DNA of 64,000 nt from Sacculina carcini. Its lineage: Eukaryota; Arthropoda; Thecostraca; Sacculinidae. The stretch covers positions 10,690,587 to 10,754,586 of the forward strand of contig OU696574.1 in NCBI GenBank assembly GCA_916048095.2, given 5' to 3'. The translations under genes and the position numbers were made by a program. The notes under the pieces are model-generated. The model had not been told where the DNA came from. It searched no databases and saw only the letters and a program-made list of their open reading frames with translations. Below, piece by piece: positions 12,576 to 62,244 of the stretch. Each line of letters opens with the position of its first letter. Within the stretch, counting starts at the first letter, position 1.

Positions 12576-13599
12576 TAATGTAATGTAATGTGTTTATATG
12601 TATATGTGTGTGTTTATATGTATATGTGTGTGTTTATATGTATATGTGTGTGTGTATATGTGTGTGTGTTTGTATGTGTGTGGGTGTGTGTGCAGACAAC
12701 ACTGACATGACTGTTGCTGCTGACGAGCTGGGTGGTTTGTGTGTGGAGCGAGGAAGTTGTGTGTTGAACGACAGTGGGGGTGCTGGTGTTAGTGGGGGAA
12801 GTATGACTGCCGGTAGTGGGGCGGGGGTTGGTCTCAGTGGGGGAGTCGGCACTGACTGTCTCTCAACTGACTCCCGACTGATGATGCCTGATTCCGGCCT
12901 GCACGCCATTGATGACCAGGATGCTGACAATGAACGTGATCTGCATCACACGGTCAGTGATTTCAACCGCCACAATCTCACTCACTCTCACTAGAGGAGT
13001 TTAATGTTGACGCTATGGAGTGTGACTTAGCGGAACTTTGTTCCAAGAAAGAGGAGCCTCTGACGAGCGTTTCATTGTGCTCAGACAGTTTGAGACGTCT
13101 ATTTTTCATATGGACTCATGGATCCTTCCATAGACTTTCTGTTCATGTTTCCTCTTCAGTATGTTGTTCGCTTCTAACGTTCTTCTATATTGCTGTGTAT
13201 CTGTTGATGATCAAGGTTCATTGGGATTGCTATCATGTAATTGATAACGTTTGCGCTCTTCTCTTTTCGCCTTGTTCATTGGTTTCAATAATAATGATAA
13301 TAATAATTAATAGTAATAATAATAAATTGGTAGGTTGATGGGTGGACTGATGGGGGTGTAGTCAAAAGCTAATACAGTGAACCCCGGTTATAAGAGATTA
13401 TTTCTTCCTGGTCCGTCTTCTATAATTTACGTGTAATTTTCCCCGGATATAAGAGATATAAGAGACTTTTTCTCACTCCCGACAACTCTTTCTTATATCC
13501 GGGCTACACTATAGCCGTAGCACAATGTGTTCACAAACTCTGCTCAAGGGAAATACTCCAGTTAGGTGTTTTTCACGTGTTCATGCACTCATCAACATA

Positions 13600-15646: not shown

Positions 15647-16335
15647 TGATATTGTAGTGAGCCGGTGAGGTGGCTATTACGACGTATCTCGCGTTCAAGG
15701 GTGTGGATACGGTGCTGTGAGAAACAATATGTCCTCGTTGGTGTGATAAAGGCCTGGATAACCTTGGATAAAGGCCTTTGTTGTCTTGTGCATCAGAGAA
15801 CATGTTATTCGTTGTGTTGTGCCGTATCCGTTAAACCTCATCTGTGAATGAAGTGACTTCACTTGAGCATACATTATCATACTACTAACTTCTCATTGCT
15901 TCTTCACATGTTTTCCTCCTCAACTGATATCGATATATTCATCTGCAAACATGTACATAAACATGAACAAACGCTTGTAAAAGCATGATTGTGTTTAACG
16001 AGAGACAAAAATGTTTGGATCTTTGAATCTTGTTTTGATGAGGTTGTTTTATCGGTGTTTTGTTCAAGTTTCACATGACGTATATTCTATGTCCAACTCG
16101 ACATCAATACAAGACAAATTCAGCCAGCAATTTATCACTATTCTCTAGCTAGATTAAGCGTGATTAATACGAAGATGTCATGAAGTATTGTCTCGTTTTG
16201 TTTATTTTATCACAACTCAGTCGCTTCCTAGACAAAATCTACTCAGATGCTTGGAATAAAAAATTGTAGCGTAGAAGAGTAGTGATTATGAGCGAATGTG
16301 AATGACCTTTTGACCCTCGATTTCATTTAATAAAT
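15647..16335. other. Intergenic, zinc-finger gene to SPAG6
   Basis: Contains the 3' UTR of the zinc-finger gene and the promoter/5' UTR of SPAG6, both on the plus strand. No repeat or extra gene is seen. Confidence 0.5.
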
Positions 16336-40879: not shown

Positions 40880-43800
40880 TTTGTGTTGTATTTTGCACTT
40901 TTTACAGTTAAGTTTGTTGTCTCGATGTTGACATGATACGTGATTTCTAGTCACCTGAAATTGACTGTTTTTTTTTGGTTACTTGTTTTTATTTCAGTTG
41001 GCTGTGTAATTTTATGTTTGCTTGGTAATGTATTTGTTGTATGAATATGTAATATATTTCTTATTGTTAACTCCTAGTTCCACTAACCACTGAGGTTATT
41101 TGTATATCAGGATCATAGTGTCTTATTGGTCTCGACGAATCGATCAATTGTTCTAGATGCACAACATGCTAATTTCCATGTTTTTTTGTTTCAGATTGGT
41201 TAAATTTAATATGAGAATGCTTTGTTTGGATCGAAGGTTTTGCGTTATTTTTGTAATGTCAAATTAATTTTAAATTATCCATCGTTTATTTTGGGGTATT
41301 TTCTGGGTCGAGAATGTACTAAGTTGTATAATTTATGATGTTATATTTTGTTAAATTAATTTGGGCGATTAAATTATTTATAAAATAATTTTGTTTCTTT
41401 CATATTTGTAATCATGCTTGCGCTTGTATGTTTGGGTTGTGTTATGTTTGTTCTGCACTGATGTACGCACATCGTGTGTGTATGTGCGCCCGTGTATGTG
41501 TGTATGTGGGCCGGTTGTTCACACAATGGGATCTCTCTCCTATCGCCTCTCCGCTCTTATACTCTGACTTTTTTGCCTCTCACGTTCCTCCGAGCTCTGC
41601 CCTGCCACTCAGCGCTTGTCTCCCCCGGGTGTATGTGTGTGTGTGTTTGTGTATGTGCGTGTGTGCGCGTGCCATCGGCTGCTCGATGCTGATTGGTTCA
41701 CGCGCCGCTTGTTCGGTTCGTGCTGCCTGGTGCCGCGTCACTGCTGCCACCTAGTAGCGGATTTTTAAACTAGAAGTGTGCGTTAACGGTCGTGGTTGAT
41801 TTGAACGTTCACGTCCTTGGGTGGGCGGGGCTTAACTGGTGGACGGAGGGAGAGCGGTGCTGTGTGCGCGCGAGCGTGTTTGGTCGTGTGTGTCTGTTGT
41901 GTGCGTTGCGTGTGCGTGTAGATTTGTGGGCCGGTCTGTGTGTGTGTGTGTGTTATGGCTACTTACGAATGGCTTTCTGGAGCCGATGAGGTTTGTCAAT
42001 ATTGAAATTATTTTTGTTATATTTTCCATTTAGTACTGAGTATATATGTCATTATCTAACGAATGTTTTTTTTATCATGTTTGCGTGTTATTAGTCCGTC
42101 GGGGAAATATGGTTGATGCTAAATGTGTAAAGATTCAAGAACATTAGATTGAGAAAATTTGATTGAACGAATTTTTTCCAGTCCCTCGCCTCCTGCAAAG
42201 GCAGCACATTACATTAGAACGCTAAACCTAACCTAAAATCTATGAAAAATATAGAAATGTTTTAGTGCGTTTTTAAGCGTTTTTTTTATAAATTAGCGTT
42301 TTTAATGTTCTTGAATTCTTCCACATTCAGCCTAGACCGGGAAATACTGGTCAATTTAGTTTATTATTTATACGTTATATAGTATTTAGTTTACAAAATG
42401 GAAGATGCATGCTGACTATTTCACGTGGGTTCAATTTAATCCATAAGGTTTCGAATTGTTTCGTGATTTAGGCGCTGAAATCTCGTGTGATGGAGGTTTG
42501 CGGTTCGAATCTTGGCTCAGTTCGTTTTTTCAACACTTAATACTGTATGTGTTGACAATACTCCTAATCCGCCAGCGTTTGAGCTCGAGTTATGGGAATT
42601 CGCGTACTAGCAATTATCAATGACAAAATTACATTTCGGTCCGTAATTTTAAAGTTTAGATTACGTTATTTTACTATGCTAGATTTTAGTTGTTAGTTAA
42701 TTAGTAAGAATGCAAGACAGCGCTACTAAATCTTATGAGACAATAAAGAGCGGGAGACATTGAAACAACCAGCTGAAGCGCCTTGGAAAAACGGAATTCT
42801 CTGAAGGAATTAGAACAGAACATGAAAAATACTAATGGAGTAATCAATTATGAAATTAAAAGAGGTGTTTAATCGTGTTTTTTCACATTTATTCACCAGT
42901 TTACAGGAGTCGACCTTATACGAGCGGTTCTTTTTCTTCTGGCGTTCACCAACTTCTAATCTTCTCTTATTGACTGATAATTCTACACTGTTTGCTCGTG
43001 TGTATGTGTGTGTGTGTGTGTGTGTGTGTTAGACGGCGGGTGATGGTGATGGTGAAAGCGGGGGTACTGCTGCGCTCAACGATAATTTCTGCTGGATATG
43101 TCATCGTGAGGGGAAGGTGGTGTGTTGTGAAACTTGTCCCCGAGTATATCACCTGAAATGTGCCCAATTATCTGCCGATCCGCCCGGCGACTGGGTTTGT
43201 GTGGAATGTCGGCGTGTTGTACAGGCGGACACGGCAGCCAACCGCTCGCCTTCCATGCGCCAGCTCTCGCAACAACAATTCATCACGCTGCTTGGCTATG
43301 CCATCGGCAGACTCAAGGGACTGCCCGGTGTAAGTGCGACTAAAGATATGACTATTAACTACTAACTTGTTAACTACTAACTTATTAATAAATGTAGTAT
43401 AGACTAAAGATATAGGATCGTGACAACACACACACACACACACAAACACACACAATTTGTGCACAATATAGATATGAACAGTGTATGTCTGTCTGTGTGT
43501 GTGTGTCGGGTTTAAATTAGCGTGTCATATTGTTTCTCTGTACACTATATTCACTTTTATATTGGCTTAGACTTGTCTGTTGGCTTTTTATTTCATAATC
43601 TTACTGTTTTTTGTTTGGTATGAATTGTTGCTCACGACGGGTGGGTTTAAATGCCAGTTATTTATATTTATGCTACTATCGTTATTAAATTTTCTAAATA
43701 TTCTGATATTAATAACACGTGCTTAATCTTGTTTGACGCTTTTGTTAATCGCAGTAACAGTTGTGTTTTTGTCTGTGACATCTGGGTTTCTGAACGAAAT

Positions 43801-46800
43801 TGGCATATTCTATATAGTTCAAATATTAATATTATCTGATGAATGCGTGTGCTTTTTTATTCAATATTAAAGTTTCTCATAAAACAGTACACGTGATATT
43901 TTTCAATGGTTGCCATGACAACAAACTCATATTTTGCCGTGTTTTTCATATTTATTTCACGTGCCAATTTGACTCCGGTTCTTCCTGTCATACACAAATG
44001 CAATTTTTTCAATGTCCATGGAATATTTGATTCATCCAGTATTTGGTATATTGCTAAATTAAATCTATTTGTTTGAAATTTAATGTTCATGGTGTTTTAT
44101 CGTGAAAAATTCCCATATGCTTGAAATTACGCTTTGCTCACAGTTTTAATAGGAGTATTTCGACCAGTATTGTTAGCGCATGCAGTCTTTGATTGAATTC
44201 AGCTGCGTAATTATTAAATGTTATTCGTGAGTCATACTTGGAGATTGTTCGCGAAATAACAGCATTTATACATGTTGTATTATCCATAATACCGGAGATA
44301 TGGCGGTGTTTCACGGTTATATTCAACAACATTCGTGTCATATATTATGCGATGTTGACACGTGCTTATTTTAGCATGGCACTCCCGCTATTTGCTTTTC
44401 TCATTGACCTGCGTTGTGTGTTTATACTACACGTATGTATGTGTGTGTGTATGCACGTGTATTGGTAATGTCGGCCATTTTGTTTGGCGCATTTTAGAGA
44501 GAGTGTGAGAGTATATGAGTTTCACCCTCGTCTCTCGTCCTCTACCCGTCCGCTCCCGCTCTCCGCGCTCTTTCCCTGCCACGACATCGGTTGACGTCAG
44601 CGGCCACCCCTGCACTCGGACGAGTCCATTATTGTGTCGACGGCAGAGTGGTCGAGTCGATGCGCTCTCACGCTCTGTCTCGTCTAGTTAGTCGTATTGC
44701 CGCTAGATGTCGTTGTGACGGTGGTTTTTGTTGTCAGGCTGAGCCGTTCTCCAGTCCTGTCGACACGCAGAAGTTCCCGCATTATCGGGAGCTGGTCGCC
44801 TACCCCATGAACCTGCTCATCATGGAGCAGAACACCAACGACGGTCTCTACGGCTCCACCGAGGCCTTCATCTCAGATTGCAAGTGGATCGTGCATAATT
44901 GCGTGCTGTTCAACGGAGGTGCCCCATCTCACACACGCACGTGTTTACTCACAAATTATCATCGCTCAATTCATTTGTTTTACAGTCAAGTTTGATGTTC
45001 TTGGTTTATTTTGGAGCTAACTTATTTATTGCCTATTTTCATCCAACTTGTTCTTTATTATTTTTCTCTACCTATTTTATTTTTATGTCTAGATGATGTA
45101 GGAAGGACTAGAGAATTAACACTTTAATGAGGAAAACAACATAAATCTAGTGAAAATAGGAATATTCTTGTCTAACTTGAATTTGATTGGTTAATTTATT
45201 TGCCTTTTCAGAGTGCGATTACATGTGTGTGTTTTTATCAAGCCGAATGAAATATTATATTATCACACATTTACCTCAAGATCTGATCGTAAATCCCTCA
45301 TCAAGCGTGAAAAACATGACAATTTTGCTTAAAAAAATACATGTTAAAAACTGGTTACGTGTGCAAGCATACTTACACACTAACACACACACATTCTTAA
45401 TGTTTACATTAGTCATTTTACCATCTGCTAGTCGGGTTTAAATACATCGTGGGCGTATGTTTGTGTATGAAATGTATGTATATATGTGTGTGTTATGTAT
45501 GTATGTGTGTAATGTATGTGTGTGTGTGTAATGTATGTATGTGTGTAATGTATGTGTGTATGTATGTATGTGTATGTGTGTATGTATGTCTGTGTGTGTT
45601 ATGTCTGTATATGTGTATGTGTGTGTATGTATGTCTGTGTGTGTGTGTGTATGTATGTATGTCTGTGTGTGTAATGTATGTATATGTGTGTGTAATGTAT
45701 GTCTGTGTATGTATGTATGTGTATGTGTTTATGTATGTCTGTGTGTGTATGTATGTATGTCTGTGTGTGTATGTATGTATGTGTGTGTGTGTAATGTATG
45801 TGTGTGTATGTATGTGTGTGTAATGTATGTATGTCTGTGTGTTATGTATGTCTGTGTGTGTAATGTATGTCTGTGTGTGTGTAATGTATGTGTGTGTGTG
45901 TAATGTATGTATGTATGTATGTGTGTGTGTGTGACAGCGAATAACAAGTTGACAACATTGGCCAAGTCTTTGTTGCGCATGTGTAAATGGGAGATGGAGG
46001 AGATTGAGACCTGTCCTGACTGCTATGGCAACGCCTACAACGACGACAACTGGTTCACCAAGGCCTGTGTCAGTATATCTCTCTCTCTCTCTCTCTCTCT
46101 CTCTGATTAACACATTAACACACACACATATTACATTTATATTCTACACATTTTACATACATTACATTCTGCCATTTTTCACACATATTCTATTGTCAAA
46201 ACTTGTGTCCAGATTGCAATTCTGATATTTTTATATCACGTTTTTCGTGAGAAAATCTCAAGTGCGCTCACACTCAAATACACACACGCACACACACAAA
46301 TAGGTATATATACACTAGCTTCCACATTGAGACGAAAATGTATGTTTAGTGTATTTTAGTCAGTGTGTGTGTGTGTGTGTGTAACATGGTGCAAATACTT
46401 CATCAATTTCTCTCAGCTTTCTACTTACGCCTTTTTCTAGCTGAGAAATTGGTCATCCATTGAATTTGATCACATTCAAATCATACAGAATCAATTATAC
46501 TAGAATAGAGCCTATTGAGTCATGTGTGTATGTGTGTGTGTGTATGTGTGTTTGTGTGTGTGTGTCAGCCTCATCCTCATCTGTTGATCTGGGCTCGTCT
46601 CAAAGGATTTCCGTTCTGGCCGGCCAAGGCGATGAAATCTCGCGACGGAAACGTAGACTGTCGCTTCTTCGGTCGTCATGACAGGTGTGTGTATGTCTGT
46701 GTGTGTGTGTGTGTGTTTCTTCGGTCGTCATGACAGGTGTGTGTGTGTGTCTGTGTGTGTGTGTGTCTGTATTTGTGTGTGTTTATGTGTGTTTATGTGT

Positions 46801-47274
46801 GTTTGTCTGTGTGTGTGTGTGTGTGTTTATGTGTCTGTATGTATTTGTGTGTGTTTATGTGTGTTTGTATTTGTGTGTGTTTATGTGTGTTTGTCTGTGT
46901 GTGTGTTTGTCTGTGTGTGTGTGTGTTTTTGTGTCTGTATTTGTGTGTGTGTTTTTTTGTCTGTATTTGTGTGTGTGTGTGTGTATATATGTGTGTTTCT
47001 GTATGTGTGTGTGTGTGTGTGTTTGTCTGTATTTGTGTGTGTCTGTGTGTATGTGTGTGTGTATATATGTGTTTTTCTGTATTTGTGTGTATGTGTGTGT
47101 GTGTGTTTAGAATCACCGATTGTTTTTTTGTGTTATTATTGTCTTAGATGAATATTTCGTGTGTGTGTGTGTTAGGGCGTGGGTGCCAGTTAAGGAGTGT
47201 TTCTTGTACTCCAAGGAACCACCGTGTCCTCCGAAGAATCGCAGCAAAAGTCTGGACACTTGCATCGCGGTATG

Positions 47275-47343
<69 letters not shown>

Positions 47344-48498
47344 TACACACATACATACGTTTACTAGAAAAGCTGTGTGTTCACAGGGTGGTTTATATTT
47401 TATGTGTTGGGAAATTGCCCGACCTGGAGGTGTGTTTCTGATCAAATCACGTGAAATCATTATTTGCAGCCTAGTTTGACGTTTTCGTTGTTGTAATGTT
47501 GTAATTTGAATTAGCACTGATGAAAAATAATGTTTTGAAGATCTGCGTGAGGAAAGTGCTGTGAATTTCTTTCTATGCTTTAATTTGAATTGGGAGACTC
47601 ATCATTTGTGTGTGTGTTTGTGTGGTAGGAATTGGAGGATCACATCAGGAATCTGGCACTGCGGTTCGGTCAGTATGTGTACTCACGACCGCGAATTCAG
47701 TACGATCCCAAGAAAGTGTTTCAGCATTTGGCCGCCGCTCTGCCGGGACTGAGTGCCGCCGTCGCCAAACAAACTGCCGATGAAGGTTTGAAACTTATTT
47801 CTCGTGCAATAGTCGCTCTGGCACTCTCACTCATTTTCTTCCAAACAAACTGCCGATGAAGGTTTGAAACTTATTTCTCGTGCAATAATAGCTCTGGCAC
47901 TCTCACTCATTTTCTTCCAAACAAACTGCCGATGAAGGTTTGAAACTTATTTCTCGTGCAATAGTAGCTCTGGCACTCTCACTCACAAGCCACGTTGTGA
48001 GTGGATATATTGAGTCGTTTTTCTTCCAAACAGACGAGAGTGAAGTTGACAAGCTTCTTTCGCGTCGCCTCCATGTTTCTTGCGAGTTGTTGGTGGTTTG
48101 TAGCGAATCTTTTGGCCGATGTTGTGTTGGCGTAACTTCTCACTTTCTATACGAGTTCACACTTATCTCCATCCTCACATACTGCTAGACTATTTAATGC
48201 TAAATTTTGCGGATTGTTTATATAAGCCGGCGGTGAGTGGCACGAAGATGCTAACTAACGCACGCAGGTGCTAACTGCTAGCGGTGTGCTGCAGCAGGGA
48301 CACACCCAGTCGGTAAAATGCCGTTTTCTTCAACTTGCACGTTCATGGCTGGTCTCAAGTTGGTGATATTAATTGCCTCAAGCAGTACCAGACGCCGTAT
48401 GTCACGTTCTTGATCTCTGTTTTGCTCACTATTTCTATGTAATTTTTTTGTGCTTGTCGTGTAAGTTGTATGATGCTGTTGATGTTGAAATTGTTGTC

Positions 48499-48533
<35 letters not shown>

Positions 48534-51173
48534 GTTGCATAATGTGTGTGTCATAGTGTGTTGCTGAATTGCAATCTGGACACAGGTGTCACATTGATGG
48601 AATCATTCAACCGTTAAACTAATAGTGCAGTATGTTGTTTTGTTGTGTGTATATTTGAATATATCGTATTTCGTATCGTATTTTATATCGTACACTCATT
48701 TTATTTATTTAACACAACCAACAGGATGTATATGCATATCCCAATTACAGATTTGCACACAATACTCACTCTCTCACACACACACACACAGACACAAATG
48801 ATGAACATACAAAACACGAGATTTAGAGTGTGAGTAAATGGTAAAACCTAAATATACAGTAGAGGCATGAACATATTTACCCCCTCGAATCCTTCAAAAT
48901 TGATGTGAGAGTCTTCCCAGGCGCTTGGAGGAAGTAGTGAAGCGCAGAGGAGGTAATACCAAGTATTAAGTTGTTTATTAATACAAATACATGTTGATAA
49001 ATGATGTTTATTGTTGGATAAACTGTATCATTGGTGGCCGGCATAATGATTGCGGCGTGTGTGTGTGTGGACAGAATCTGCGAAACGCAAGCGTTCTTCT
49101 CCGCCTGGCTCGTCGAGCGGCAACTCGGAGGAGGTTCAATCAGACGAGTTGCCGGATGGCAAGAAAGCTCGCCGCTGTTCGTCGCAAAATGACCAGTCAT
49201 CGACGTGTGAGCAGCTTGTGTCTGAAGCCAGTCACAAGACAACTGACTCGGCACAGCCTCAACAAGCTGCCAATGAGCCACACAGCCAGTCTAGCCAGCC
49301 AGTTGGCGGTGATGTCAGTTCCTCGTCCTCGTCGTCAACCAGTGTCACCACAGATTCCCCCGCCACCATCACCACATCTGCTGTCAGTGCTGACAAACAG
49401 ACAGTGTCCAAGAACTCGACCATGACTGCTCAGTCAGCAGTCAAGACCTCCATCAAACAACAACAGCAGCAGAAGACATCAACTGCTGTCGTGGTGCCCA
49501 TCAAGTCGCCGTCGGCAGTGAAACCAGTGGCGGCGGGAGGTGTGTCCACGGCTCGTGTGGCGGCGGTGAGTGGTGTAACGGCGGGCATCAACGGTCGCTC
49601 CTCCTCCATCACACCAGCACGAGCCAACGGCATGGCGGTGGCGCGTGCCAGTTCCCAGCAGCATCGCCCGGCTGCCTCGCCGTCGCTGGCAGGAGCACGT
49701 GCGCTGGTTCCTCGCAGCTCACCGGCCACGTCCCTGCATCAGCAGCAACAGCAGGTGTTGCTGGCCACCTCGGCGACGGCGCATAACGCCGGCATGACGG
49801 GCAAGACACAACTGCTCGGCGACGGACAGTTCGCTATTGTGGGACCGCAGACACTCGGACCGATGATGGTGATCCCGGGTGTGGCAGGCGCCTCGTCCTC
49901 GCTACTGCACGCCACTGCCACATCAGGAGCAGGTCGGTCGCCTCTCTCTCTCTCTCACTCTCTCTCTCTCTCTCACTCTCGCACGTGCAGTCACGGATCA
50001 TTAGTGTTGACCATTGAGCAGGACAAACACACCGTGTAGTGTTGAACTGTGTTGTGTTCTACTCGCATTATCATCTTAATGAGCCATCTCTTCATTTTCC
50101 ACACAACACAGCGCTGATAAATTCAATAAATTCAGTTGTTACATCAAAGTAAATATCATTAGAGGTCATAAGAAACAAAAATAAACGAATTTGAATGGAT
50201 AAAAACACACATAGTTGTCCTGTTCTGTGCGACCTTTAGCTTCCCACTTTTAGCATCCACAAGAACCACTGGTCTGGTGGATAAGAAGAAAGTTCCCCCT
50301 TCCCCCTTACACATCTTAGTGAAGAGAAGAAGACGGCTGGAATATTGCAATAATTGCATCTGTTTGTATGTTGCAGGACTTTGTGCGGTTAACACTCTGG
50401 GAGCAGTATCAGGCGGTGCCGATATCAACTCATCATCAATAATGGCCGAGTCTGCCGGTCCCGTGTCAGCAGAACTCGACAAACAGGCCAAGAGCGTGAG
50501 TATACTTCCTCTCTCTCTCTGTCTCTCTCTGTCTACGGCCATGCATGCATTCAATACATCATTGTGTCATTTGGTGAGGCTGTTTTGCCTCCAGTTAAAA
50601 AGACGATATTTCGTTTGTGTACGTCCGCTCAATCTTGGTCTAGACTAAATGTGTAAGGATTCAAGAACATTAAATTGAGCTAATTTATAAAAAACGTTTC
50701 TATATTTTTCATAGATTTTAGGTTAGGTTTAGCGTTCTAATGTTCATTGTGCTGTCTTTGCAGGAGGCGAGGGACTGGAGGAAATTCGTTAAATCAAATG
50801 TTCTTGAATCCTTACACATTAGCGTCAACCCTCAATATTCACCTTGTCCATGTGTGTGTGTGTGTCTAGTTGACGGACATGATGCGATCGAGCTTGGAGA
50901 AAGTGTTGACCGACCTGGCGATGGCTGGCAGTCCGCAGGCCTCAGTGGCCAGTCTCAAACTACAACTGGAACGACTGCAGTGGAAACATCAAATGGAACT
51001 GGCCGAACAGAAGAAAGTCTCCGGTATGTGTCAGTGTGTATGTGTGTGTGTCAGTGTGTGTGTCAATGTTAGTGTGTGTCTGTGTGTGTGTGTGTGTCAA
51101 TGTTAGTGTGTGTCTGTGTGTGTGTGTGTGTCAATGTTAGTGTGTGTGTGTGTGTGTGTGTCTGTGTTTGTGT

Positions 51174-51207
<34 letters not shown>

Positions 51208-52279
51208 CAGTGTGTGTGTATGTGTGTTTGTTTGTTTAGGTTGATTGTCACTCATGCATATAAGCACACACATGTGAAGAAACAAATCTTATAGCACAGT
51301 GACAAAGTCCTCTATAAGCCGAAGCTTCTTTTAGGACTTATTTAAATCAAATATAATACAATCACAAGGCAATAAAATCGAATAACAATCAAACATGATA
51401 TATCATACAACACAAAACAATTTGCAAACGACAATTTGAAAACAATTCGCAAAACAACAGGAGTGTGAAAGAGAGAAATATATGTTACAACAACTCAAAC
51501 ATGAGTAATTTTAGAATTTTCAGTTCTTTGTTTCTCCAGCAAATGTTTCTTAAATTTGTTTTTGAAATGTGTGTGTGTCAGTGTGTGTGAGATTTAAAAG
51601 TAGTGAACGTGTGTGTATTCACTAGTTGTTGTGTACAGGAGATGAGCAAGACTGTCGTCAGGGTGTTTTATCAATGGTGGAATTATTTGAAATAACTGAG
51701 CTTCTCGTCTTCAAGTGTCATTCTCTCTTATGTTTTGTTTACCATTGAAAGAAAGAAAGAAAGAAATGTTAATTTTGCTCAGACTCAATAAGAGTATGGA
51801 GCACATCTCCGCATCAAATAACATTGATGTAAAAACAACAACAGCACAACATCAAAAACAATTCAATATGACATTATATATGAATCCAAATATGTAAATT
51901 CCCAATCATAATGCAACAAATCACAAATTGAGGTGTAAATTGTGTATGTGTGTGTGTGTTAGATGCGATGTTGGCTGAAGTTCGCAGCAGCATGGAAATG
52001 GACCAGAAACGTGCCCTGCAGCGATTAAGCGCCTCATTCTCGGTCGAGCGACGCGAACTGCAGCGCCAGACAGAGTTGCGTGTTGCCGAGACGAAGCGCA
52101 AGCAATGGTGCGCTCATTGCGGCAACGAGGCCATCTTCTATTGCTGTTGGAACACTTCGTACTGCGATTTCCCGTGTCAGGAGGCGCAGTGGCCCAAACA
52201 TATGGCCACCTGTGCCAACCAACAGGGACAACATGCGGCGGGCGGCGGCGATGGAACGGCCAGTGACTCGAGCAGGTGA
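38718..52279 (+). CDS. ZMYND8: ZMYND8 (PRKCBP1/RACK7) chromatin reader
   Basis: A nuclear reader of acetylated and methylated histone tails that recruits repressors. Eleven exons: 38718-40340, 43033-43329, 44738-44918, 45938-46068, 46569-46684, 47176-47269, 47629-47785, 49075-49932, 50377-50495, 50870-51023 and 51963-52279. All phases agree, giving 1348 residues (human about 1190). Exon 1 (541 residues) is low-complexity Ser/Thr/Glu with basic patches. Exon 2 holds the PHD finger ([20 protein letters not shown]). Exons 2-4 make the bromodomain ([25 protein letters not shown] with the acetyl-lysine Asn). Exons 5-6 hold the PWWP ([25 protein letters not shown]). Exon 8 is Ser/Gln/Ala-rich. Exons 10-11 form a coiled coil and the MYND finger ([20 protein letters not shown]). 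Tandem copies of the exon 5 and exon 7 ends lie in the following introns. Confidence 0.95.
40465..40768 (+). mobile_element. tRNA-derived SINE, copy 2
   Basis: The head resembles tRNA-Val: GTGGTGTAGTGGTAGAAC (A box) and GTTCGTTGTTCGAAACCC (B box), with an anticodon-loop-like TTAACAA between CCCG and CGGG. The body of about 230 bp matches the reverse complement of 19375-19676. The extended body and second copy argue for a SINE rather than a functional tRNA gene. It lies in ZMYND8 intron 1. Confidence 0.82.
40840..40876 (+). repeat. (TG)n microsatellite
   Basis: Pure TG array in ZMYND8 intron 1. Confidence 0.9.
41640..41990 (+). promoter_or_regulatory. Candidate alternative promoter and first exon of ZMYND8
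   Basis: A GC-richer island inside intron 1 contains ATTGG (CCAAT-type, 41691), GGTGGGCGGGGC (Sp/KLF-type, about 41821) and several CG dinucleotides. It ends in an ATG at 41955 with 12 open codons ([12 protein letters not shown]) up to a donor GAG|GTTTGT at 41990. That donor is phase 0 and would join the PHD exon at 43033 in frame, giving a protein without the 541-residue N-terminal extension. Inference from sequence only. Confidence 0.4.
42111..42338 (-). mobile_element. AAATGTGTAAGGATTC MITE family, copy C
   Basis: Ends and interior match copies at 23565, 27844 and 50637. It lies in ZMYND8 intron 1. Confidence 0.75.
45480..45936 (+). repeat. (GTAT)n/(GT)n array before ZMYND8 exon 4
   Basis: More than 450 bp of TGTATGTGTGTAATGTATG-type units that run straight into the acceptor GTGACAG of exon 4. 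Confidence 0.92.
46665..46736 (+). repeat. 52-bp tandem duplication of ZMYND8 exon 5 end and donor
   Basis: TTCTTCGGTCGTCATGACAG followed by GTGTGTGT occurs at 46665 and again at 46717. The first copy is the coding exon end (donor after 46684). The second reproduces the same 3' coding sequence and a second donor after 46736, inside the intron. Confidence 0.9.
46737..47108 (+). repeat. (GT)n compound array
   Basis: GT tracts with TGTTTGTCTGTATTTGTGTG units filling ZMYND8 intron 5. Confidence 0.9.
47278..47340 (+). repeat. (CA)n microsatellite after ZMYND8 exon 6
   Basis: Pure CA array starting a few bases past the exon 6 donor (GCG|GTATGA). Confidence 0.92.
47765..47986 (+). repeat. 76-bp tandem triplication spanning ZMYND8 exon 7 donor
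   Basis: Three near-identical units start at 47765, 47841 and 47917, each opening CCAAACAAACTGCCGATGAA and containing GAAG|GTTTGA. The first is the coding exon end (47785). The other two carry the same donor at 47861 and 47937. Units differ by single bases. Confidence 0.93.
50077..50240 (-). repeat. Dispersed repeat GGTCGGACAGAACAGGACAA, copy 2
   Basis: Reverse-strand copy of the repeat at 35365-35570, in ZMYND8 intron 8. Confidence 0.65.
50637..50830 (+). mobile_element. AAATGTGTAAGGATTC MITE family, copy D
   Basis: Shorter copy in ZMYND8 intron 9, immediately upstream of exon 10. It carries CTTTGCAG|GAGGCGAGGG, an acceptor-like site with an open frame ([14 protein letters not shown]). Confidence 0.75.
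51024..51230 (+). repeat. (GT)n array after ZMYND8 exon 10
   Basis: GT tracts with repeated TCAATGTTAGTGTGTGTCTG units of about 44 bp, starting at the donor. Confidence 0.9.
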
Positions 52280-52972
52280 AGCTCCGACGATAAGAATCAC
52301 GTGCCTCCTTGCCCCCCCCCCCTTCCCCAGTTTTTTGTTGATTTTTACATTTCACCATTTGCTACTGGTGTTTTGTTTGCTGCGTTCACAAAAATCACGG
52401 CTGATTTTATAACACATCATGGAGTATTGCAGTGCAGTTTGGTGCGTGCGTGAGCGCGCGCTCATTGAATACATACACTTCTATTTTGGTGCGTTTTTGT
52501 TTTTATTGCGCATCAATTATGATGAATCATAAGATGAATAGCGAATTGTAAAAATATATTTCATAAGCGGAATTTCTTCTATAAAAAGATGGAAGAAAAT
52601 CACGAGCGAGTGATTAACGAGCACTTCTACGCTAAAATCGCAACGGTGGCTTCAGGTTAATGCAATGCAATGTAACCTGTGTGGGTAAATCACCATTGGA
52701 GTTGAAAGATAATTAAAAGTCGGACAGAACAGGACAAATGTGTGTGTGTGTGTGTTTTTATCAATCTGAATTCGTGTATGTTCGTTGTTTCTGTTGGCTT
52801 GCTGGTGAACAATTTGCTGAAACAACTGAATGTATTTGGATTTTATCAGCGCTGTCGTGGAAAATCACGAATTGGCTTATTAAGAAGTGGGGAATCAGCG
52901 AGAAAAACAGACACGGACCACTGATGTAGGCGAAGTGAACACACACACACACACACACAGCAGAGGGTACAG
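52280..52972. other. Tail-to-tail gap ZMYND8 / CAPN7
   Basis: Holds both 3' UTRs and, at 52715-52925, a third copy of the GGTCGGACAGAACAGGACAA repeat, followed by (CA)n at 52938-52960. No gene. Confidence 0.6.
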
Positions 52973-53331
52973 TTAGCGCACGCGAGCCAGACTGCAGAAG
53001 TTGGTGGAGAGCACGGTGATGATGAAAGGCCCCTGTTGTGCCGGCATGAACGTGCTGGGCACGAGATGGACACGTGACCGAGCCACACCACTGCCCAGCG
53101 ACAACACGACGAAACCGCTCCTGTAAGAGCCCGAGTGTTGGCGACCCCCCTCCCGCCCCGCGTCCAACCACACCGCCTCAATTCCCAACTACCACACCAG
53201 TCGAGCAAGTTAACAAACACACACACACGCATAGAAATATATCAGTGTGCAACATTCATTGTGAGGTTCAGTGGTTGTCAAACCGTCGTATGTCAACATG
53301 TGTTTCAGTGTGTGTGTACGTGTGTGTTTCA

Positions 53332-53369
<38 letters not shown>

Positions 53370-53508
53370 CAGTGTGTGTGTACTCACTAGTTGTTGTGAC
53401 TCAAGACTCAAGACTGTTAGACCGTCCTGTCTCCAAACCCACTATTGATTATAATATACGCTTAAATTGTGCGTGTGTATGTCAGTGTGTATGCGTGTAT
53501 GCCTCAGT

Positions 53509-53550
<42 letters not shown>

Positions 53551-54034
53551 CAATCTCTGTGTGTATGTCTTGCCTGGAAGACCCGCGGTCCCTTGAGTTG
53601 GATAATGACTGGCGAAGGCACAGAGGGAAGTTGCAGTTCAAACAGCGGGTTATTGGCATGAGTGGCAGGGTGATTGGCACAACCGCCAGCACTTACACCT
53701 CTCCACTCTCCCGATATCTAACACACACACACACACATGTGATTGAGATGATTGTATAGTTCGGGATAATTCAGGCAAGAGGGGTCATGGAAAAAAACTG
53801 AAAAGGACTAGATGTTTGAGAGATGTTAAGAAGTATAGTTTGCCATATACAGGTGTGTCGATGTATGGAATAAGTTAGTGGAGAATATTGTAGGAGCTAA
53901 TAGCGTAGGAGCATTTAAAGAAAGACTGGATAGTGTGAAATACTGGGAATTTCAAGGAAGATAGGTTACTAGAGGGTGGGTTGGAGACAGGACAGCACGA
54001 GCACAGCTCATCTCCTGTGCTAAACAAATAGGTG

Positions 54035-54068
<34 letters not shown>

Positions 54069-55962
54069 ATATCAACATTACATGAATTCCCCATACACCT
54101 TTTTACCTTTATCGTTCAACGTTTGACGTTTTCCTTTCCAATGTCAATACATCTATTTTGAGCCGACGAAACGTTTGGATTTTATCTGTAATTTTGTGTC
54201 ATATTATTCTCCTTATTATGTGTTATTATTATATAGTATATTTATGTATGTTCTATGTACCATTATGTATGTATGTATGTATTCTTGGGCTGTAGGTTTG
54301 AATCGGACATTTTGGCTAATACAATCCGTTGACACAAACACACACAGACACACACACACACATATATTACAGCTTGGTTTGACATAGAACCACTGACCGA
54401 ACACTGCACGGGTAGAGTGGGTAGCGGGAGTAATTGCAGAGTGGAGGAGCCACAGTATGATCGCAGCGTGAAGTGAATAGTGGCAGTTTTCTCGTACTGT
54501 GCCACAACCACGGTGTATGTCTGTCTGCCAGCGGCCGACACAGGAAGTTTGCACAAATAATGCGGCGAATTGATGCGCACTCCGTCCACACACGGCGCAG
54601 GATCGTCTGACACAAACACACACACAAACACGCTAAAACATGACTTATTATTTGATATGACTGAATGAATGATGGAAAATAGCGATGCGTGGAGATTGAA
54701 TTATTGATTGGTCAAATAATTGACAAATTGAATGAATTATTGATTGGACAAACTATTGATTGGTGAAATTATTGTAGGATTAATTGGAAGATTGAACGAA
54801 TGATCAAATAATTTATTTATTGATGGATACAATTATTGATTGTTTGAATAATTGAATAACTGCATGATTGATTGATTGATCCAATCATTGATTGATTGAT
54901 TGAACAATTGATTCACTGGATGATTGATCAAATTGTTGATTAAAAAATTGATTACCTAAAAGATTGATCGAATTACTGTATGATTAATTTGATTATTGAT
55001 TGATTGATCAAATGATTGTATGAATAATTGGATGATTGATTAATTGATCAAATGATGCATTGCTCGAATCATTGACTAAATGATTGATTCATTGAAACAT
55101 TGGTTGATGGATCAAATGATTGATAGCTTGCTTGATAAAATGAATGATTGAGTGAATAATTGATTCACTGAATGATTGATCAAATGATTAATTGAATGAT
55201 TGATTGAATCATCTATTGATCGAATGAATGAATGATTAACTGAATAATTCATTGAATGTTTGATGGAAAACATGGTCGTGTGTGTCTTGTGTGTGTTTCA
55301 TATTTATAAAACTCGATTATGTCTTATGCCCCACATTTTAGTGACTACATTCATAAAAGCTACGGTTCATTGGAAGAGAGTTAGATACACTTCACTTTGA
55401 CTTAAAAAAAACTGGTGTATGTGTTTGTGTGTGTGAGTATGTGTGTGTGTGAGTGTGTGAGTGTGTGTGAGTGTGCGCAGTTGTCAGCTGACTGGGGTAG
55501 TACAGTCGCTGTCCGTCGCTGGTCTTGTACACTATCAGAGTGATGTACTCGCGGTTATTGCGAAAATCGGCAATATCGGTGATGTGTCGAGACAACAGCA
55601 GCCACACCACTGTGGGACCATGCACCTGCACACACCGTCGCCATGACAACACACACACACACGCGCGAGTTGCCATAGCAACAGCTCAGATTTCACACAA
55701 AATAGCTGATATACAAACAAATGCCAACTAGGACAAAATTAAACAAAATACTAATAGTATGTAGCATCGGTTGGACAGCTGTTGAAAATATAGAGCACAC
55801 AACAAAAATGCAATGAACGCTAGAGAACGCGTTTAGTCATGGCCAGAAGCGATATGAAAGCTACAGCCATCAAATACACAATTACAAACACACAACTCTT
55901 CTCATGAAATCTTTCTGAACTCAACAAAAGAATAACTTCCCTACTCCCAAATGTGTATGTGT

Positions 55963-56007
<45 letters not shown>

Positions 56008-56499
56008 AGTACCTCCAGTTTATACTGTGGGTTCTCGCCGATGTTGTACATGTCGCGCACCGGACCTGTTCCCGCATTCCATGTTCTTCTCAACACATAC
56101 ACACACAGATATAAACATACAATTAAAAAAAATATCACAATTTAGCAAAGTTAACACGGAGCAAAGACGCAACACACAGAAAGCGCGAGCGTTTATCCAG
56201 CCAGCAACATTCAACGAGGTAATGAAAACACACCGACACACACACACACAGACAATAACCTACACACACCTACATACATACACCTACACCGGCACACAAA
56301 CACGCACACACACAAAAAAAATTGCCTCAACGGTTCAACGGACATGTGCCACCTATGCAATGTTTAGAGTGTTATATGTTTATTGTGTTTATTTATGTTA
56401 TACGTGTTGAGAATGGCAAATAAATTTACTTTACTTTTTTACTTTACACACACACACAAACACATATACACTTAACTCAACTGCGCTGGGTTCAGTCAA

Positions 56500-56535
<36 letters not shown>

Positions 56536-57484
56536 TTGTTATCAATATGTATGTGTGTGCGTGTGTGTATTTGTGTTTCTGAGTATGTAAACGTGAGTGT
56601 ATGTTTGTGTTTGTGCGTATATGTACTTGTCTGTTTTGTGTGTGTGTGTGTGTGTGTATGTAGGTGAGTGTGTGTGTTCGTGATTGTTGTATGTGTATGA
56701 CTCTTGTGCTTGAGTGTGAGCGCTTTTGAGACCCTCGGGTGAAAAGCTCGATATAAATGTCTTAATGTAATGTAATTTGTGTGTGTGTATGCCAGTTCAC
56801 CTGTGATGGCAGTATGTGGCCGTGAAGAGGCGAGGGCTCCAGTTGAGATAGAAGACGTCGAAATATGCCAGCACACTGTCGTAGTCGATCCAGAAGACGC
56901 CGTTATCAAAGTTGGCCGCCGAGCGCGGATCATAGTGCAGCGCTTGTTGTAACTGCGGGGTCCAGCGTTGAGTGTCCAGCTCTGAGTAGCGGCCTTTCCA
57001 ACGCAAATGAGACCACGGGTTCTTCAGCAACAGCAGCCGCCGACCCTGCCAACACACAAACACACACACACATATTATTAACACTTATACCGCAACACGA
57101 CATACGTGTGTGTGTGTGTGTACTCAGCTATTTGTTTATCACAGGAGATGAGCTGTGCTCGTTCTGTCCTGTCTCCAACCAACCCTCTAGTAACCTATCT
57201 TCCCTGACAGTCCCAGTATTTCACACACACACACACGCACAAACACAATCCAGTCTCTCTTTTTCAGCATAAAACTTGTAGAAGCATGTAGATATGGTGA
57301 ATACCTGAACTTCTCTGATGTCGAGCAGAGCGTAAGCATGACACGGAACCAGACCGGCCTTCTCAGCCACTCGCTCATCCAGGTCTCCTGTGGCTACTGT
57401 AGCCAACACCTGTCCAACACACACACATTACATTTCATTACATTAGACATATATAACGCGTTTTTCACCCAAATGTCTCAAAAG

Positions 57485-57557
<73 letters not shown>

Positions 57558-59371
57558 GCAGAAGAGTCATACACACACACTCACATACACAAACACACAC
57601 ACATTATTATTATTAATTACAGGTGAATCCAGTAGCATGGGGGAAGAGTGCAAGTGCACTATTACCACCCTGCAGTGGCCCCATGTACCGGAGGCGCCCA
57701 ACAGATTCAGAGAGAAAGAGAGTTCGAAAAGAAAAAATTCTAGAAAGAGAGTTGGAAAACAAAATAATAAATAAATAACAATAAATAATAAACCATCATC
57801 CGATAACAATCCATGTACACACATTGCTGCCACCTTCAAAATATCATAGACCACATTATAATTGAAGGATTAACAAATGAAGACGTACGTTGCCTTTGTG
57901 ATGATTGTCTGTGAGGCGTTGGAAGAATGTGTTCTTATCGAAGCCGGCATCCTCGCCTCTTATTGCCTGTCGATCAGCGATCCAACCTGTCAGGGCGTAC
58001 AGGTCAATACCCTGCGACACACACACACACACAAGCAAACAACACACACACATAATACACACACACACACAACACACATAATACACACACACACACACAC
58101 ACAAACAACACACATAATACATTACATTACATTATGGAAACAATATATATAGCGCCCTACACCTAGAAGGTCTCTAAGGCGCTGTACACACACACACACA
58201 CACACACAAGCACACACACTAACACAAATACATGCATACACACACACACACACATACAAGCAAACAACACACATACTACACACATACTAGCAAAGGCAGT
58301 AGAAATACTGCTAACAGAGTAATAACCCAACGAGTATGTTAGTATAAACGACAATACCACCGAAAACCATGCATGAAACAAAAAAATAATTATTCAATGA
58401 AACACACATATTTCCATTGTAAAAACAAAATCAATAAAGAAAAATCAATAGAAAGGTAAGCCTAAACGCTTGAATTTACAAACACACACAAACATAGACT
58501 GGCAGATAGACAGACAGACAGACAAACAGACAGATAGATAGACAGACAGACAGATAGACAGATAATGAAGAAGAGAGAGACAGATAATGAAGAAGAGACA
58601 GACAGATAATGAAGAAGAGACAGACAGACAGACAGACAGATAGATAATGAAAAAGAGACAGACAGATAGACAGATAATGAAGAAGAGACAGTTCGAGTCT
58701 GACACTGTTGGAGCCGGGAAAGTCGTAGCCGCCCATCATTTTCATGTAGGCTTTCTCGAGCAGTTGCACCCACACTTCTCCGTGATGACGCGAGTGAGAA
58801 CACAACAAACGTCCGCCGGCGTCCACTGGGAAGCGGTCATCAATGATCACCTTGCGAGCCACCCCGTTCACGTGCAAACGCACCATGTACTTGCCGCACG
58901 GATTGTACACCTACACACACACACAGACACACACATACACAGTGACGCAGCGATATAAAAGCCAACTCCATGGAAACTGGAAAAAGGTCAAGCAAAGCGT
59001 GATAGACAGTAAAGAGAGGAAGAAATAGAGATTCAGGAAACAGAATATGATAGAATATGGTATGAGAAAATGATACAAAAAAGATAAGAATATTAGAATA
59101 AGGTGATATGAATATAAGAATATAACAATATGAACCTATGGTATATAAAAATACAAGGATATAGGAATATGACAGACAATACTGAGAGGAGACGAGATAT
59201 GAGATTAGCGAGACAATACTGACTGGCTGTTGTTGTTTGTCGCGCGGGTACAGGATGCTGGTGATGAGGGGCTGGCTGAAGCGTTTCTCGTGCAGCGCTG
59301 CCACGGCAAGCGACGCGACAAACGAACAATCAGACACACACGTCTGTCTGATACTGAAACAATCCACCGAC

Positions 59372-59403
<32 letters not shown>

Positions 59404-59536
59404 TGTATGGAAACATGTGCACACATTATGTACACACAATAACTCCATTCAAATCCGTCATAATAATTGACTGTTATAATACACACAGACACACACACGC
59501 ACACCGAGAGAAACACGATGAAACAGTACAAAAACA

Positions 59537-59573
<37 letters not shown>

Positions 59574-60084
59574 ATGCAAGAGTACACCAACACACCGTAA
59601 GTAAACACAGAAGGCACAGAGGCCGCATTTAACAGTGGAGGAGTTATATGAGTTAGTATGAGTTAGTAGAGTGTTGTATGAGTAGTTAGTATGAGTTAGT
59701 ATGAGTTAGTTAGTGAGTTAGTTAGTGAGTTAGGAGAGTTAGTATGAGTGAGTTAGTAGGAGTTATATGAGAACAGTGGAGGAGTTATATGAGCACGCTC
59801 ACACGACAGACACACGGAGATGGGGCCAATTCGGCAGGGCGAGCCCATCTGCTGAAACTGGCACGCTGTTTGGCCGACAGAGGAAGAGGATGAGAGGCAG
59901 AGTCGCAAAATGGCGCCGCATAAGCAAATCTCTCGCGCACATCAACCGCCATGAACGGCACGTACACGTGGCGGTTGACACGTGATGTCGCAGCCAACAC
60001 GTGGCGCTCGTCACGTGACAACTGCGATGAACCACTCACGTTCAGCTGACAACTGAGTCCACGGTGTAGTGACGCTGACACACA

Positions 60085-60128
<44 letters not shown>

Positions 60129-62244
60129 CAGCACGGAAGCCTTAACGATGACCTAGCCCACTGTGAGTTATACGCTGTGTGTCTGGCCTTTAAAAATTGT
60201 GTGTGAAAAAACCAAAAAAAAACACAAGCACAAACACACACACGCAAATAGACGATAAGTTTAAATTCAATTATCATAGGTGTGTGTTCTCACTGCATGT
60301 GATACAAACGCACACAAAGCATAACACACCGACACTCAACATTTACTACAATAAACACTGTACTTCATATATTTGCCAGAACACAGAGGTGATTAAGTTG
60401 AGATGAGTTGCTAATTTGTTGATTGTTGTTATTGTTGTTGTTGTTGATTGTTGTTATTGTTGATTGTGGTGATTGTTGTTATTGTTGATTGTTGTTATTG
60501 TTGTTATTGTTGTTTATTGTTGTTTATTGTTGTTATTGTTGTTATTGTTGATTGTTGTTGTTATTGTTGATTGTTGTTATTGTTGATTGTTGTTATTGTT
60601 GATTGTTGTTATTGTTGTTATTGTTGATTGTTGTTATTGTTGTTATTGTTGATTGTTGTTATTGTTGTTATTGTTGATTGTTGTTATTGCTGTTATTGTT
60701 ATTGTTGTTATTGTTGTTATTGTTTATTGTTGTTATTGTTTATTGTTCTTATTGCTGTTATTGTTGTTATTGTTGATTGTTGTTATAGTTGTTATTGTTG
60801 TTATTGTTGTTATTGTTGATTGTTGTTATTGTTGATTGTTGTTATTGTTGATTGTTGTTATTGTTGTTATTGTTGTTATTGTTGTTATTGTTGTTATTGT
60901 TTGTATTGTTGATTGTTGATATTGTTGATTGTTATTATTGTTGATTGTTATTATTGTTGATTGTTATTATTGTTGTTATTGTTGTTATAGGTGCGACGTC
61001 TACCTGGCGCCGAGGTTGATGCGACCACGGGAGTTGTAGCGGATGATCCTGTCTCAACGTCTCGACGAGTCTCAAAACTGACATCATCGGCACCTGGCTG
61101 TGTCGGTGCTCGGTCAATATCAGGCAGTTCTTGTTGCTGCGGGGGATGGCAGGACGGTGGAGCCGAGGCTTGAGACAAACTCAGCTCTGCTTTCAGCTGT
61201 TCAGCTCGTGATAACGCTCGATCAGCAGTCTCGCTGAATTTCACGCTGGGAAAACTCTTGTTCTACACGGGCACAGGTTAGGTTAGGTCAGTTTATTGAC
61301 CGCAGCATAGCATAACACATGAAAATAGTACACACACGGAATGGTTCATAATAAATATAAAGTAAACGAGAACATAATGACAAAATACCACACTGTCATT
61401 ATCACACAACAATCACTTCGTTTTAACGCCACAATATATAATGCGAGCGATTAACCATGTTCGCTCTTAACATATACGCTCTTCGCGATACACACACAAA
61501 CACATGTATCTGCGTGTTTATTTTACAGATTGTGTGCGGCAGGTGGGCCCCGAGACACTGGGGCAAAAGCTATGCATGAGACGATATGGCGATTATTATG
61601 TGAGATAACTGATTGTGCTGTTAGCAATGGCAGTGAGAAAATGGGGAGTACAATGCAGCATCGCACTGACCGCTGAAAGACAGAGCTCAACAGCCTGGCC
61701 GTAGAGATCGACAGCGTCTGAAGAGTGGCCGGCTTCGTCAAGATCCAGTGCCTGTGACATAAGGAAGAAGACGCGCTCCAGCTCGGCATGCCCGTCATTC
61801 TGCTGCATGGCCTCACAACTCGCAGCATCGACTGGCGAAACAAGCAAGCTGTATCAACTAGCTGATACTTAACAGCAACAGATTCAACGCGCATCACATA
61901 TATTGCACAAAGCGGGACAAATACGCCCATATTGAGGAAGACATTGCAAGTATTCATGGTCGAGATCCAGCTTGAAACAAAGCGGATCAATTGTGGACAA
62001 TCACTTCAGAAAACCTGCCTTCATTTTTCAGCTGTTCAGCACGAGATAAATAATCGGCCGCCTTCTTGTTGAGTTGCTGCAGCGAGCTATCAGAGGCGGC
62101 GGCAGTCAGCAGAGCCCCAGCCGCTTCTGTGTAGTGATAGAGCGCCGCCTGCTTGCATCCGCCATTGTCAAACTGCACTGCGCGGTCGGCGAGCGTCGTG
62201 GCACGTTCCAGCAATGACTGAGGGTCGTTGCAGTCATCGTCCAT
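52973..62244 (-). CDS. CAPN7: Calpain-7 (PalB-type calpain with MIT domains)
   Basis: An atypical calpain recruited by ESCRT-III through two N-terminal MIT domains. Fourteen exons: 62244-62019, 61831-61671, 61256-61004, 60074-59803, 59370-59224, 58910-58704, 58011-57889, 57409-57305, 57045-56801, 56088-56013, 55625-55493, 54606-54410, 53717-53574 and 53188-52973. All phases agree, giving 834 residues (human 813). MIT1 is exon 1 ([16 protein letters not shown]); MIT2 spans exons 2-3. The protease core keeps the triad: Cys about 319 in [13 protein letters not shown], His about 487 in [14 protein letters not shown] and Asn about 507 in [12 protein letters not shown]. The C-terminal C2-like domains include [37 protein letters not shown] and [13 protein letters not shown]. 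Introns 1 and 13 use GC donors. Tail-to-tail with ZMYND8 and head-to-head with HINFP. Confidence 0.95.
54663..55262. repeat. Degenerate (ATTGATTGA) tandem array
   Basis: Six hundred bases of loosely repeated ATTGATTGAATGATTGATCA words within a CAPN7 intron, between exons 11 and 12. Period near 4 bp with longer higher-order units. Confidence 0.8.
56715..56777 (+). repeat. GCGC-core tail module, copy 2
   Basis: GCGCTTTTGAGACCCTCGGG, then GTGAAAAGCTCGATATAAAT and TTAATGTAATGTAAT, preceded by a (TG)n-rich tract. Confidence 0.6.
57425..57490 (-). repeat. GCGC-core tail module, copy 3
   Basis: On the minus strand: GCGCTTTTGAGACATTTGGG, GTGAAAAACGCGTTATATAT, then TAATGTAATG. The adjoining 57490-57556 array is (CA)n on the plus strand, which is (TG)n upstream of the module. 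Confidence 0.6.
58119..58190 (-). repeat. GCGC-core tail module, copy 4
   Basis: On the minus strand: (TG)n, then GCGCCTTAGAGACCTTCTAG, GTGTAGGGCGCTATATATAT and AATGTAATGTAATG. It is closest to copy 1 at 12455. Confidence 0.65.
58497..58690 (+). repeat. (GACA)n/(GATA)n array
   Basis: GACAGACAGACAGATA units with interspersed GATAATGAAGAAGAGA repeats, in the CAPN7 intron directly after the exon 6 donor. Confidence 0.9.
59636..59790 (+). repeat. GAGTTAGTAT tandem array
   Basis: Irregular GAGTTAGTATGAGTTAGT units and a duplicated AACAGTGGAGGAGTTATATG block next to CAPN7 exon 4. Confidence 0.85.
60412..60992. repeat. (TTGTTATTG)n tandem array
   Basis: Nearly 600 bp of TTGTTATTG/TTGATTGTTG units filling a CAPN7 intron and ending a few bases from the exon 3 donor (61004). 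It reads as repetitive ORFs in several frames. Confidence 0.93.

Follow-up and report, generated by a model that had tools for sequence, protein, structure and literature searches.

The polypyrimidine tract before the 3' splice site is regarded as a near-universal signal of metazoan introns. UG tracts in this place are known from regulated exons such as human CFTR exon 9, and AC-GT introns of fish and lamprey have reportedly been described by Lin et al. (Genome Res, 2016). Here we describe the intron ends of a 64,000-nucleotide (nt) stretch of the Sacculina carcini genome (contig OU696574.1, positions 10,690,587 to 10,754,586; hereafter the window, with positions counted from its first letter), above all those of its ZMYND8 and CAPN7 genes, together with introns from elsewhere in the assembly (264 megabases, 43 contigs), and we ask what stands before their 3' splice sites (acceptors) in the place of that tract. 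Across eight eukaryotes, pyrimidines were reported to be over-represented on the acceptor side, T alone accounting for this except in human and sea urchin, where C contributes too, and the abstract and section 3.6 of that study describe no rise of G before acceptors (PMC10946897). Some mutually exclusive exons of human genes are preceded by UG-rich motifs, which were reported to go with opposite responses to depletion of U2AF65 and of PUF60 (PMC7969005), and the ends of the fish and lamprey AC-GT introns are reported to pair with each other, splicing then proceeding without U2AF2 (PMC7404189, PMC9198270).

The acceptors studied here share with ordinary U2-type polypyrimidine acceptors the YAG end, the AG-free zone, the richness in T and a U2AF2 gene in the genome, but G, not C, joins T, and pyrimidine runs do not exceed their frequency in the interiors. 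They resemble the human UG tracts (CFTR exon 9, PUF60-dependent exons) in that a UG-rich stretch lies directly before the 3' splice site; in human this is a trait of particular regulated exons, whereas here it marks about half of the sampled acceptors, mostly those of seemingly constitutive exons. As in AC-GT introns, GT repeats precede acceptors and AC repeats follow some donors, but acceptor TG does not depend here on donor AC, and the two ends of an intron pair no better with each other than with those of other introns. Judged from the letters of the introns, the acceptor signal looks shifted, being rich in U and G and often plain (UG)n where other animals have U and C, and the likeliest reading is a U/G tract in the polypyrimidine role, a variation on a known signal.

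Our reading, towards which we lean if only slightly, is that the last 20-60 nt of the introns form a keto (U/G) tract that does the job of the polypyrimidine tract, (TG)n being its slippage-expanded form. Such a tract would keep the interval between branch point and AG free of AG, as the polypyrimidine tract does, and would bind U2AF2 and/or a UG-binding protein (CELF, TDP-43 or PUF60). (TG)n would expand by replication slippage where U and G already abound and would be retained since it is compatible with acceptor function, while (CA)n would be removed there. No animal in which acceptors generally have a U/G tract was found in titles and abstract openings, a weak negative, most subscription papers lying outside the coverage. 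If the reading is true, these introns would show, as a natural experiment, which features U2AF2 and its helpers need to recognise. They would then also mislead gene-prediction models that were trained on U/C tracts, and would help to separate the part that AG avoidance plays in shaping intron ends from that of a preference for pyrimidines.

The intron set (n = 76; 20 gene groups) comprised 37 introns of the window and 39 from motor-protein genes (myosin, dynein, kinesin) in other parts of the assembly; eight further acceptors without a usable donor entered only a total of 84 acceptors. Part of the statistics was computed on 75 introns, the 76th being the intron between exons 4 and 5 of CAPN7. 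Besides ZMYND8 and CAPN7, the window contributed introns of DRC1, a transporter gene, a Bcl-2-like gene, SPAG6 and a zinc-finger gene, names that are putative and in part those of the original prediction. A TG run was defined as exact alternating TG of at least 8 nt within the last 60 nt of an intron, and a CA run likewise; chance expectations were obtained by random rotation within each intron (5000 simulations).

TG runs were found near 37 of the 76 acceptors against 11.0 expected, and none of the simulations reached this number (maximum 20). The excess was present outside the window (15/39 against 3.6 expected) and in introns other than those of ZMYND8 and CAPN7 (20/55 against 5.3 expected). 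A CA run occurred near a single acceptor of the 76, that of CAPN7 exon 5, against 5.6 expected (P = 0.0086), and with the eight extra acceptors the tally was 43 TG and one CA of 84. The enrichment of TG before acceptors is real and reaches beyond the window. The original prediction had named the loss of any genome-wide sense-strand bias under control for TG/CA density as grounds against it, and in the 76-intron sample the bias persisted, TG being enriched three- to fourfold near acceptors and CA depleted. Its further statement that (TG)n tracts approach most 3' splice sites stands for ZMYND8 and CAPN7 and is too strong for the sample as a whole, because 37 of 76 is about half.

Run densities by zone were computed on the 61 of 75 introns with a length of at least 320 nt. 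TG-run density rose from 4.6% in interiors to 9.1% in the penultimate 60 nt and 21.0% in the last 60 nt, while CA-run density fell from 3.2% to 0.9% and 0.3%. Among the 39 introns with a TG run in the last 100 nt, the 3' end of the tract lay a median of 9 nt from the intron end. TG and non-TG introns were not separated by length (medians 593 vs 484.5, P = 0.32). These zones bear on a transcription-coupled strand bias, under which entire introns would be TG-rich on the sense strand: the slight interior excess of TG over CA agrees with it, but the bias is confined to the last 60-120 nt and is reversed in the first 60 nt (CA 8.4%, TG 4.1%), and because the bias depends on position this explanation is already disfavoured and, to us, scarcely credible. 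Tracts carried in by repeats, that is, (TG)n or (CA)n tails of short interspersed element (SINE)-like sequences inserted in introns, are very improbable as a source of the pattern. Two SINE-like units bearing a terminal (TG)n or (CA)n were indeed recognised by eye in the window (about 12455 on the plus strand; 58185, 57170 and 54010 on the minus strand), but the tracts at acceptors abut the AG and are one-sided, and insertions would favour neither place nor strand.

The composition of intron ends was then compared with that of interiors in the 39 of 76 introns that have no TG run. Between positions -20 and -5 of these introns, G rose to 0.244 from an interior value of 0.167 (P = 1.7e-6) and T to 0.418 from 0.337, A fell to 0.173 from 0.315, and C showed no gain (0.165 vs 0.177); G exceeded C in 98.8% of bootstrap draws over introns, and the pyrimidines together rose somewhat (0.583 vs 0.514), from T alone. 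The trend was the same in the 34 introns whose TG runs did not reach 6 (G 0.233 vs 0.172). A 12-mer with at least 10 G/T preceded 52 of the 76 acceptors, compared with 24% of interior windows, and one with at least 10 C/T preceded 7 of the 76, compared with 13% of interior windows. Of 75 acceptors, 2 had a pyrimidine run of at least 8, compared with 7-8% of stretches taken from interiors, in keeping with the original prediction that classic polypyrimidine tracts would be missing or short.

The AG-free zone before the acceptor had a median of 44 nt overall, 64 nt in introns that have a TG run and 35 nt in the others, compared with 13 between interior AGs. Position -3 was C in 54, T in 18, A in 3 and G in none of 75 introns, so that 72 of 75 ended in YAG, a count that is partly built in, since junction scoring preferred C or T there. 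Words resembling branch points lay farther from the AG in TG introns, with medians of 67 nt vs 28.5 for YTNAY (P = 0.0004) and 118.5 vs 55.5 for TAAY (P = 0.012); the difference for CTRA (136.5 vs 101.5, P = 0.20) was not significant. The larger distances fit a branch point upstream of the repeat, but a tract so poor in A would produce them as well.

Part of this could arise by tolerance and avoidance only, with selection acting against AG (and A) near the acceptor and TG microsatellites persisting there and growing by slippage without any binding function; (CA)n would then be lost near acceptors because AG and adenines are selected against, and (TG)n has neither. The long AG-free zone and the depletion of CA agree with this explanation, as does the absence of depletion among interior TG tracts that are followed by YAG, and AG avoidance is reported to shape acceptor composition in Drosophila and others (PMC10946897). 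Avoidance alone should not, however, lift the density of TG runs 4.6-fold over that of interiors, nor would it raise G in introns that lack TG runs, and we consider it a serious but rather unlikely account of the whole pattern.

Several points weigh against a U/G tract in the polypyrimidine role. Avoidance of AG and A together with slippage would yield part of the pattern without a reader protein. All splice sites are inferred from open frames, and motor-protein genes supplied 39 of the 76 introns, which fall into 20 gene groups. The share of acceptors with TG varies strongly by gene, from 0/5 in one dynein gene to 10/12 in CAPN7. Interior sense TG tracts with a YAG within 12 nt were not depleted relative to antisense ones (27/114 vs 21/76, Fisher P = 0.61), and within 20 nt the counts were 30/82 sense and 31/62 antisense; such decoys being common, a TG tract is not a sufficient acceptor signal. 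Genome-wide pattern counts were uninformative: (TG)10TTAG occurred 722+639 times against 290+271 for the reversed control (2.4 times), and (TG)10TTGA occurred 442+438 times against 139+178 (2.8 times), so that the first excess is not specific to acceptors. Two further counts were made, of (CA)10TTAG (45+36 vs 24+23), which is not phase-comparable, and of (TG)6YAGGTRAG (44+59 vs 3+3), which may reflect substitution in a repeat.

The gene models behind these counts were built as follows. Once spliced, ZMYND8 (exons 2-11 in the model) and CAPN7 (exons 2-14) each give a single open frame; the former matches the Pfam families PHD, Bromodomain, PWWP, ZMYND8_CC and MYND, and the latter Peptidase_C2 and Calpain_III, with MIT just below the cut-off. 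The acceptor of CAPN7 exon 5 was set at 59370 by the context of the catalytic cysteine of calpain-7. Motor genes were located by family searches, and their junctions were scored by frame, spacing in the profile, a generic donor matrix and a preference for C or T at -3, the acceptor score containing no TG term; for one set of myosin pairs, the score also drew on how closely they resembled a myosin that this genome encodes in a single exon. One myosin acceptor (C36:4870376; C-numbers denote contigs of the assembly) was chosen by hand over a higher-scoring site, and its protein reads better. Excluded were one kinesin pair on C15 and one myosin pair on C30 with ambiguous junctions, pairs with an exon missing in between, and the C21 pair 4484947/4486519, which fell outside the retrieved stretch. 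Two of the 39 introns outside the window (C23, C36b) connect neighbouring mutually exclusive exons and may never be spliced as such.

CA runs were also found on the donor side, a feature that the original prediction had missed. In the window, 10 of 37 introns had a run of at least 8 nt within their first 60 nt, where 3.7 were expected (P = 0.0008), and in the whole set 12 of 76 had one, where 5.6 were expected (P = 0.0024); for introns other than those of ZMYND8 and CAPN7 the figure was 6/55 against 3.2 (P = 0.056). They bring to mind AC-GT bridging as in zebrafish, in which donor-side (AC)n pairs with acceptor-side (GU)n, joins the splice sites and replaces U2AF2. Such bridging agrees with the enrichment of donor CA in the window and overall (for example after ZMYND8 exon 6 and CAPN7 exons 9, 10, 11 and 13), with the presence of TG at the acceptor in 9 of 12 introns with donor CA against 28 of 63 others, and with a few introns whose cognate ends pair far more strongly than expected. 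However, this co-occurrence is not significant (Fisher P = 0.065), 28 of the 37 introns with acceptor TG have no donor CA run, and donor CA outside the window (2/39) equals its expectation of 2.0. Across 69 introns of at least 220 nt, cognate ends paired no better than non-cognate ones (means -33.76 and -33.70 kcal/mol, permutation P = 0.48), and the genome does hold a U2AF2 gene. The pattern CAGGTAAGT followed by AC within 30 nt gave 34 matches at 5 places against 35 (28+7) for the reversed control, which is no excess, its variable gap counting one repeat many times. Because donor enrichment outside the window, a significant association and preferential pairing of cognate ends are all lacking, bridging is not supported as a general mechanism, and as such we hold it to be improbable; it may operate in single introns.

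Candidate readers of a U/G tract are encoded in the genome. U2AF2 is present as two single-frame, head-to-head copies at C26:1032598-1036283, 64% and 68% identical to human RRM1-2; the matches at E ≤ 0.001 included no intron-bearing copy, though one with short exons could escape a search made exon by exon. In the one readable copy, RRM2 differs from human by G265A, N268P, N271T, N289H, Y302F and S336L (18 positions checked), while the 12 checked residues of RRM1 and of the linker side are unchanged. The residue numbers are provisional, and the changed RRM2 positions presumably lie at the RNA surface. Terms for an RNA-surface role of these RRM2 positions were not found in PMC4786784 or PMC7408900. 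Single-frame copies are frequent in this genome (kinesins, dyneins, a myosin), so that the state of U2AF2 may reflect general retroposition. That the 3' splice-site code changed from U/C to U/G across a whole lineage, and that U2AF2 adapted along with it, we consider unlikely. Among the UG-binding candidates, TDP-43_N matches lie at three places in the genome, and CELF-like RRMs are present, one of them within a single frame and others as separate exons, the best 63% identical. Two of the TDP-43 N-terminal domains form a head-to-head pair at C26:5886003-5886991, on the same contig as the U2AF2 pair.

The individual tracts of the window are listed in the table below. Between 43000 and 60110, 18 of the 21 acceptors of ZMYND8 and CAPN7 have a TG run and one has a CA run. 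Every acceptor for which the original prediction had named a sense-strand TG tract indeed carries one, both in ZMYND8 (exons 2, 4, 5, 6, 7, 8, 10 and 11) and in CAPN7 (exons 4, 6-10, 12 and 13), and CAPN7 exons 11 and 14 carry one too, though absent from its list. ZMYND8 exons 3 and 9 and CAPN7 exons 2 and 3 have none, and the (CA)n exception described for CAPN7 exon 5 is in place before its acceptor. Elsewhere in the window, the tracts announced for the zinc-finger exon, for transporter exons 3 and 4 (two transporter acceptors, runs of 21 and 9) and for Bcl-2 exon 4 (the last exon of that gene, run of 11) were all recovered, and DRC1, described as mixed, has TG in 2 of 6 introns and at one extra acceptor (run of 8).

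Table. Repeat tracts at intron ends in the window (acceptor positions in brackets; TG and CA run lengths in nt, read on the sense strand).
Feature	Positions	Strand	Detail
Zinc-finger exon acceptor (12696), TG tract	12633..12695	+	run 11
ZMYND8 exon 2 acceptor (43033), TG tract	42970..43032	+	run 25, last 60 nt
ZMYND8 exon 3 acceptor (44738), approach, exception	44675..44737	+	no TG run of at least 8
ZMYND8 exon 4 acceptor (45938), TG tract	45875..45937	+	run 14
ZMYND8 exon 5 acceptor (46569), TG tract	46506..46568	+	run 13
ZMYND8 exon 6 acceptor (47176), TG tract	47113..47175	+	run 13
ZMYND8 exon 6 donor, (AC)n right after	47270..47360	+	CA run 59
ZMYND8 exon 7 acceptor (47629), TG tract	47566..47628	+	run 11
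ZMYND8 exon 8 acceptor (49075), TG tract	49012..49074	+	run 13
ZMYND8 exon 9 acceptor (50377), approach, exception	50314..50376	+	no TG run of at least 8
ZMYND8 exon 10 acceptor (50870), TG tract	50807..50869	+	run 15
ZMYND8 exon 11 acceptor (51963), TG tract	51900..51962	+	run 13
CAPN7 exon 4 acceptor (60074), TG tract	60075..60137	-	run 40
CAPN7 exon 5 acceptor (59370), (CA)n tract, sole opposite-sense exception	59371..59433	-	
CAPN7 exon 6 acceptor (58910), TG tract	58911..58973	-	run 12
CAPN7 exon 7 acceptor (58011), TG tract	58012..58074	-	run 17
CAPN7 exon 8 acceptor (57409), TG tract	57410..57472	-	run 11
CAPN7 exon 9 acceptor (57045), TG tract	57046..57108	-	run 13
CAPN7 exon 10 acceptor (56085), TG tract	56086..56148	-	run 9
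CAPN7 exon 10 donor, (AC)n right after	55950..56012	-	CA run 39
CAPN7 exon 11 acceptor (55625), TG tract	55626..55688	-	run 13; newly listed
CAPN7 exon 11 donor, AC-rich stretch after	55426..55492	-	CA run 12
CAPN7 exon 12 acceptor (54606), TG tract	54607..54669	-	run 11
CAPN7 exon 13 acceptor (53717), TG tract	53718..53780	-	run 17
CAPN7 exon 13 GC donor, (AC)n after	53500..53573	-	CA run 35
CAPN7 exon 14 acceptor (53188), TG tract	53189..53251	-	run 11; newly listed

ZMYND8 holds two tandem duplications, each covering an exon end and its donor, at window positions 46665-46766 (52-base-pair unit, 2.0 copies) and 47765-47985 (76-base-pair unit, 2.9 copies), and both give rise to duplicated candidate donors. 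Four of 75 introns are of the GC-AG type, with donors at window position 53573 (minus strand), in the 397-nt intron of DRC1, at C26:606361 and at C15:754586. The putative SPAG6-like gene (window positions 16306-18587) has almost its whole coding sequence in one exon and has one modelled intron.

Seven loci for dynein heavy chains each consist of one open frame, 4025 to 4695 codons long, and are apparently intronless (C23:2820823, C25:7198573, C31:1332530, C25:592221, C8:9764239, C1:2638184 and C6:517909), and intron-bearing dyneins coexist with them. More than 20 full-length kinesin motor domains are each in a single frame, with a cluster at C11:1881371-2062534 and others on further contigs, and a full-length myosin head lies in one frame at C7:1241414. 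A fragment of muscle myosin scored higher with arthropod and squid chains than with those of vertebrates, as suits a protostome, and COX1 was not found in the assembly. Adjacent alternative versions of one myosin exon, covering the same profile range, were found at C23:545260/547195 and C36:4878646/4879577, and resemble the exons of muscle myosin that are used in a mutually exclusive way in protostomes.

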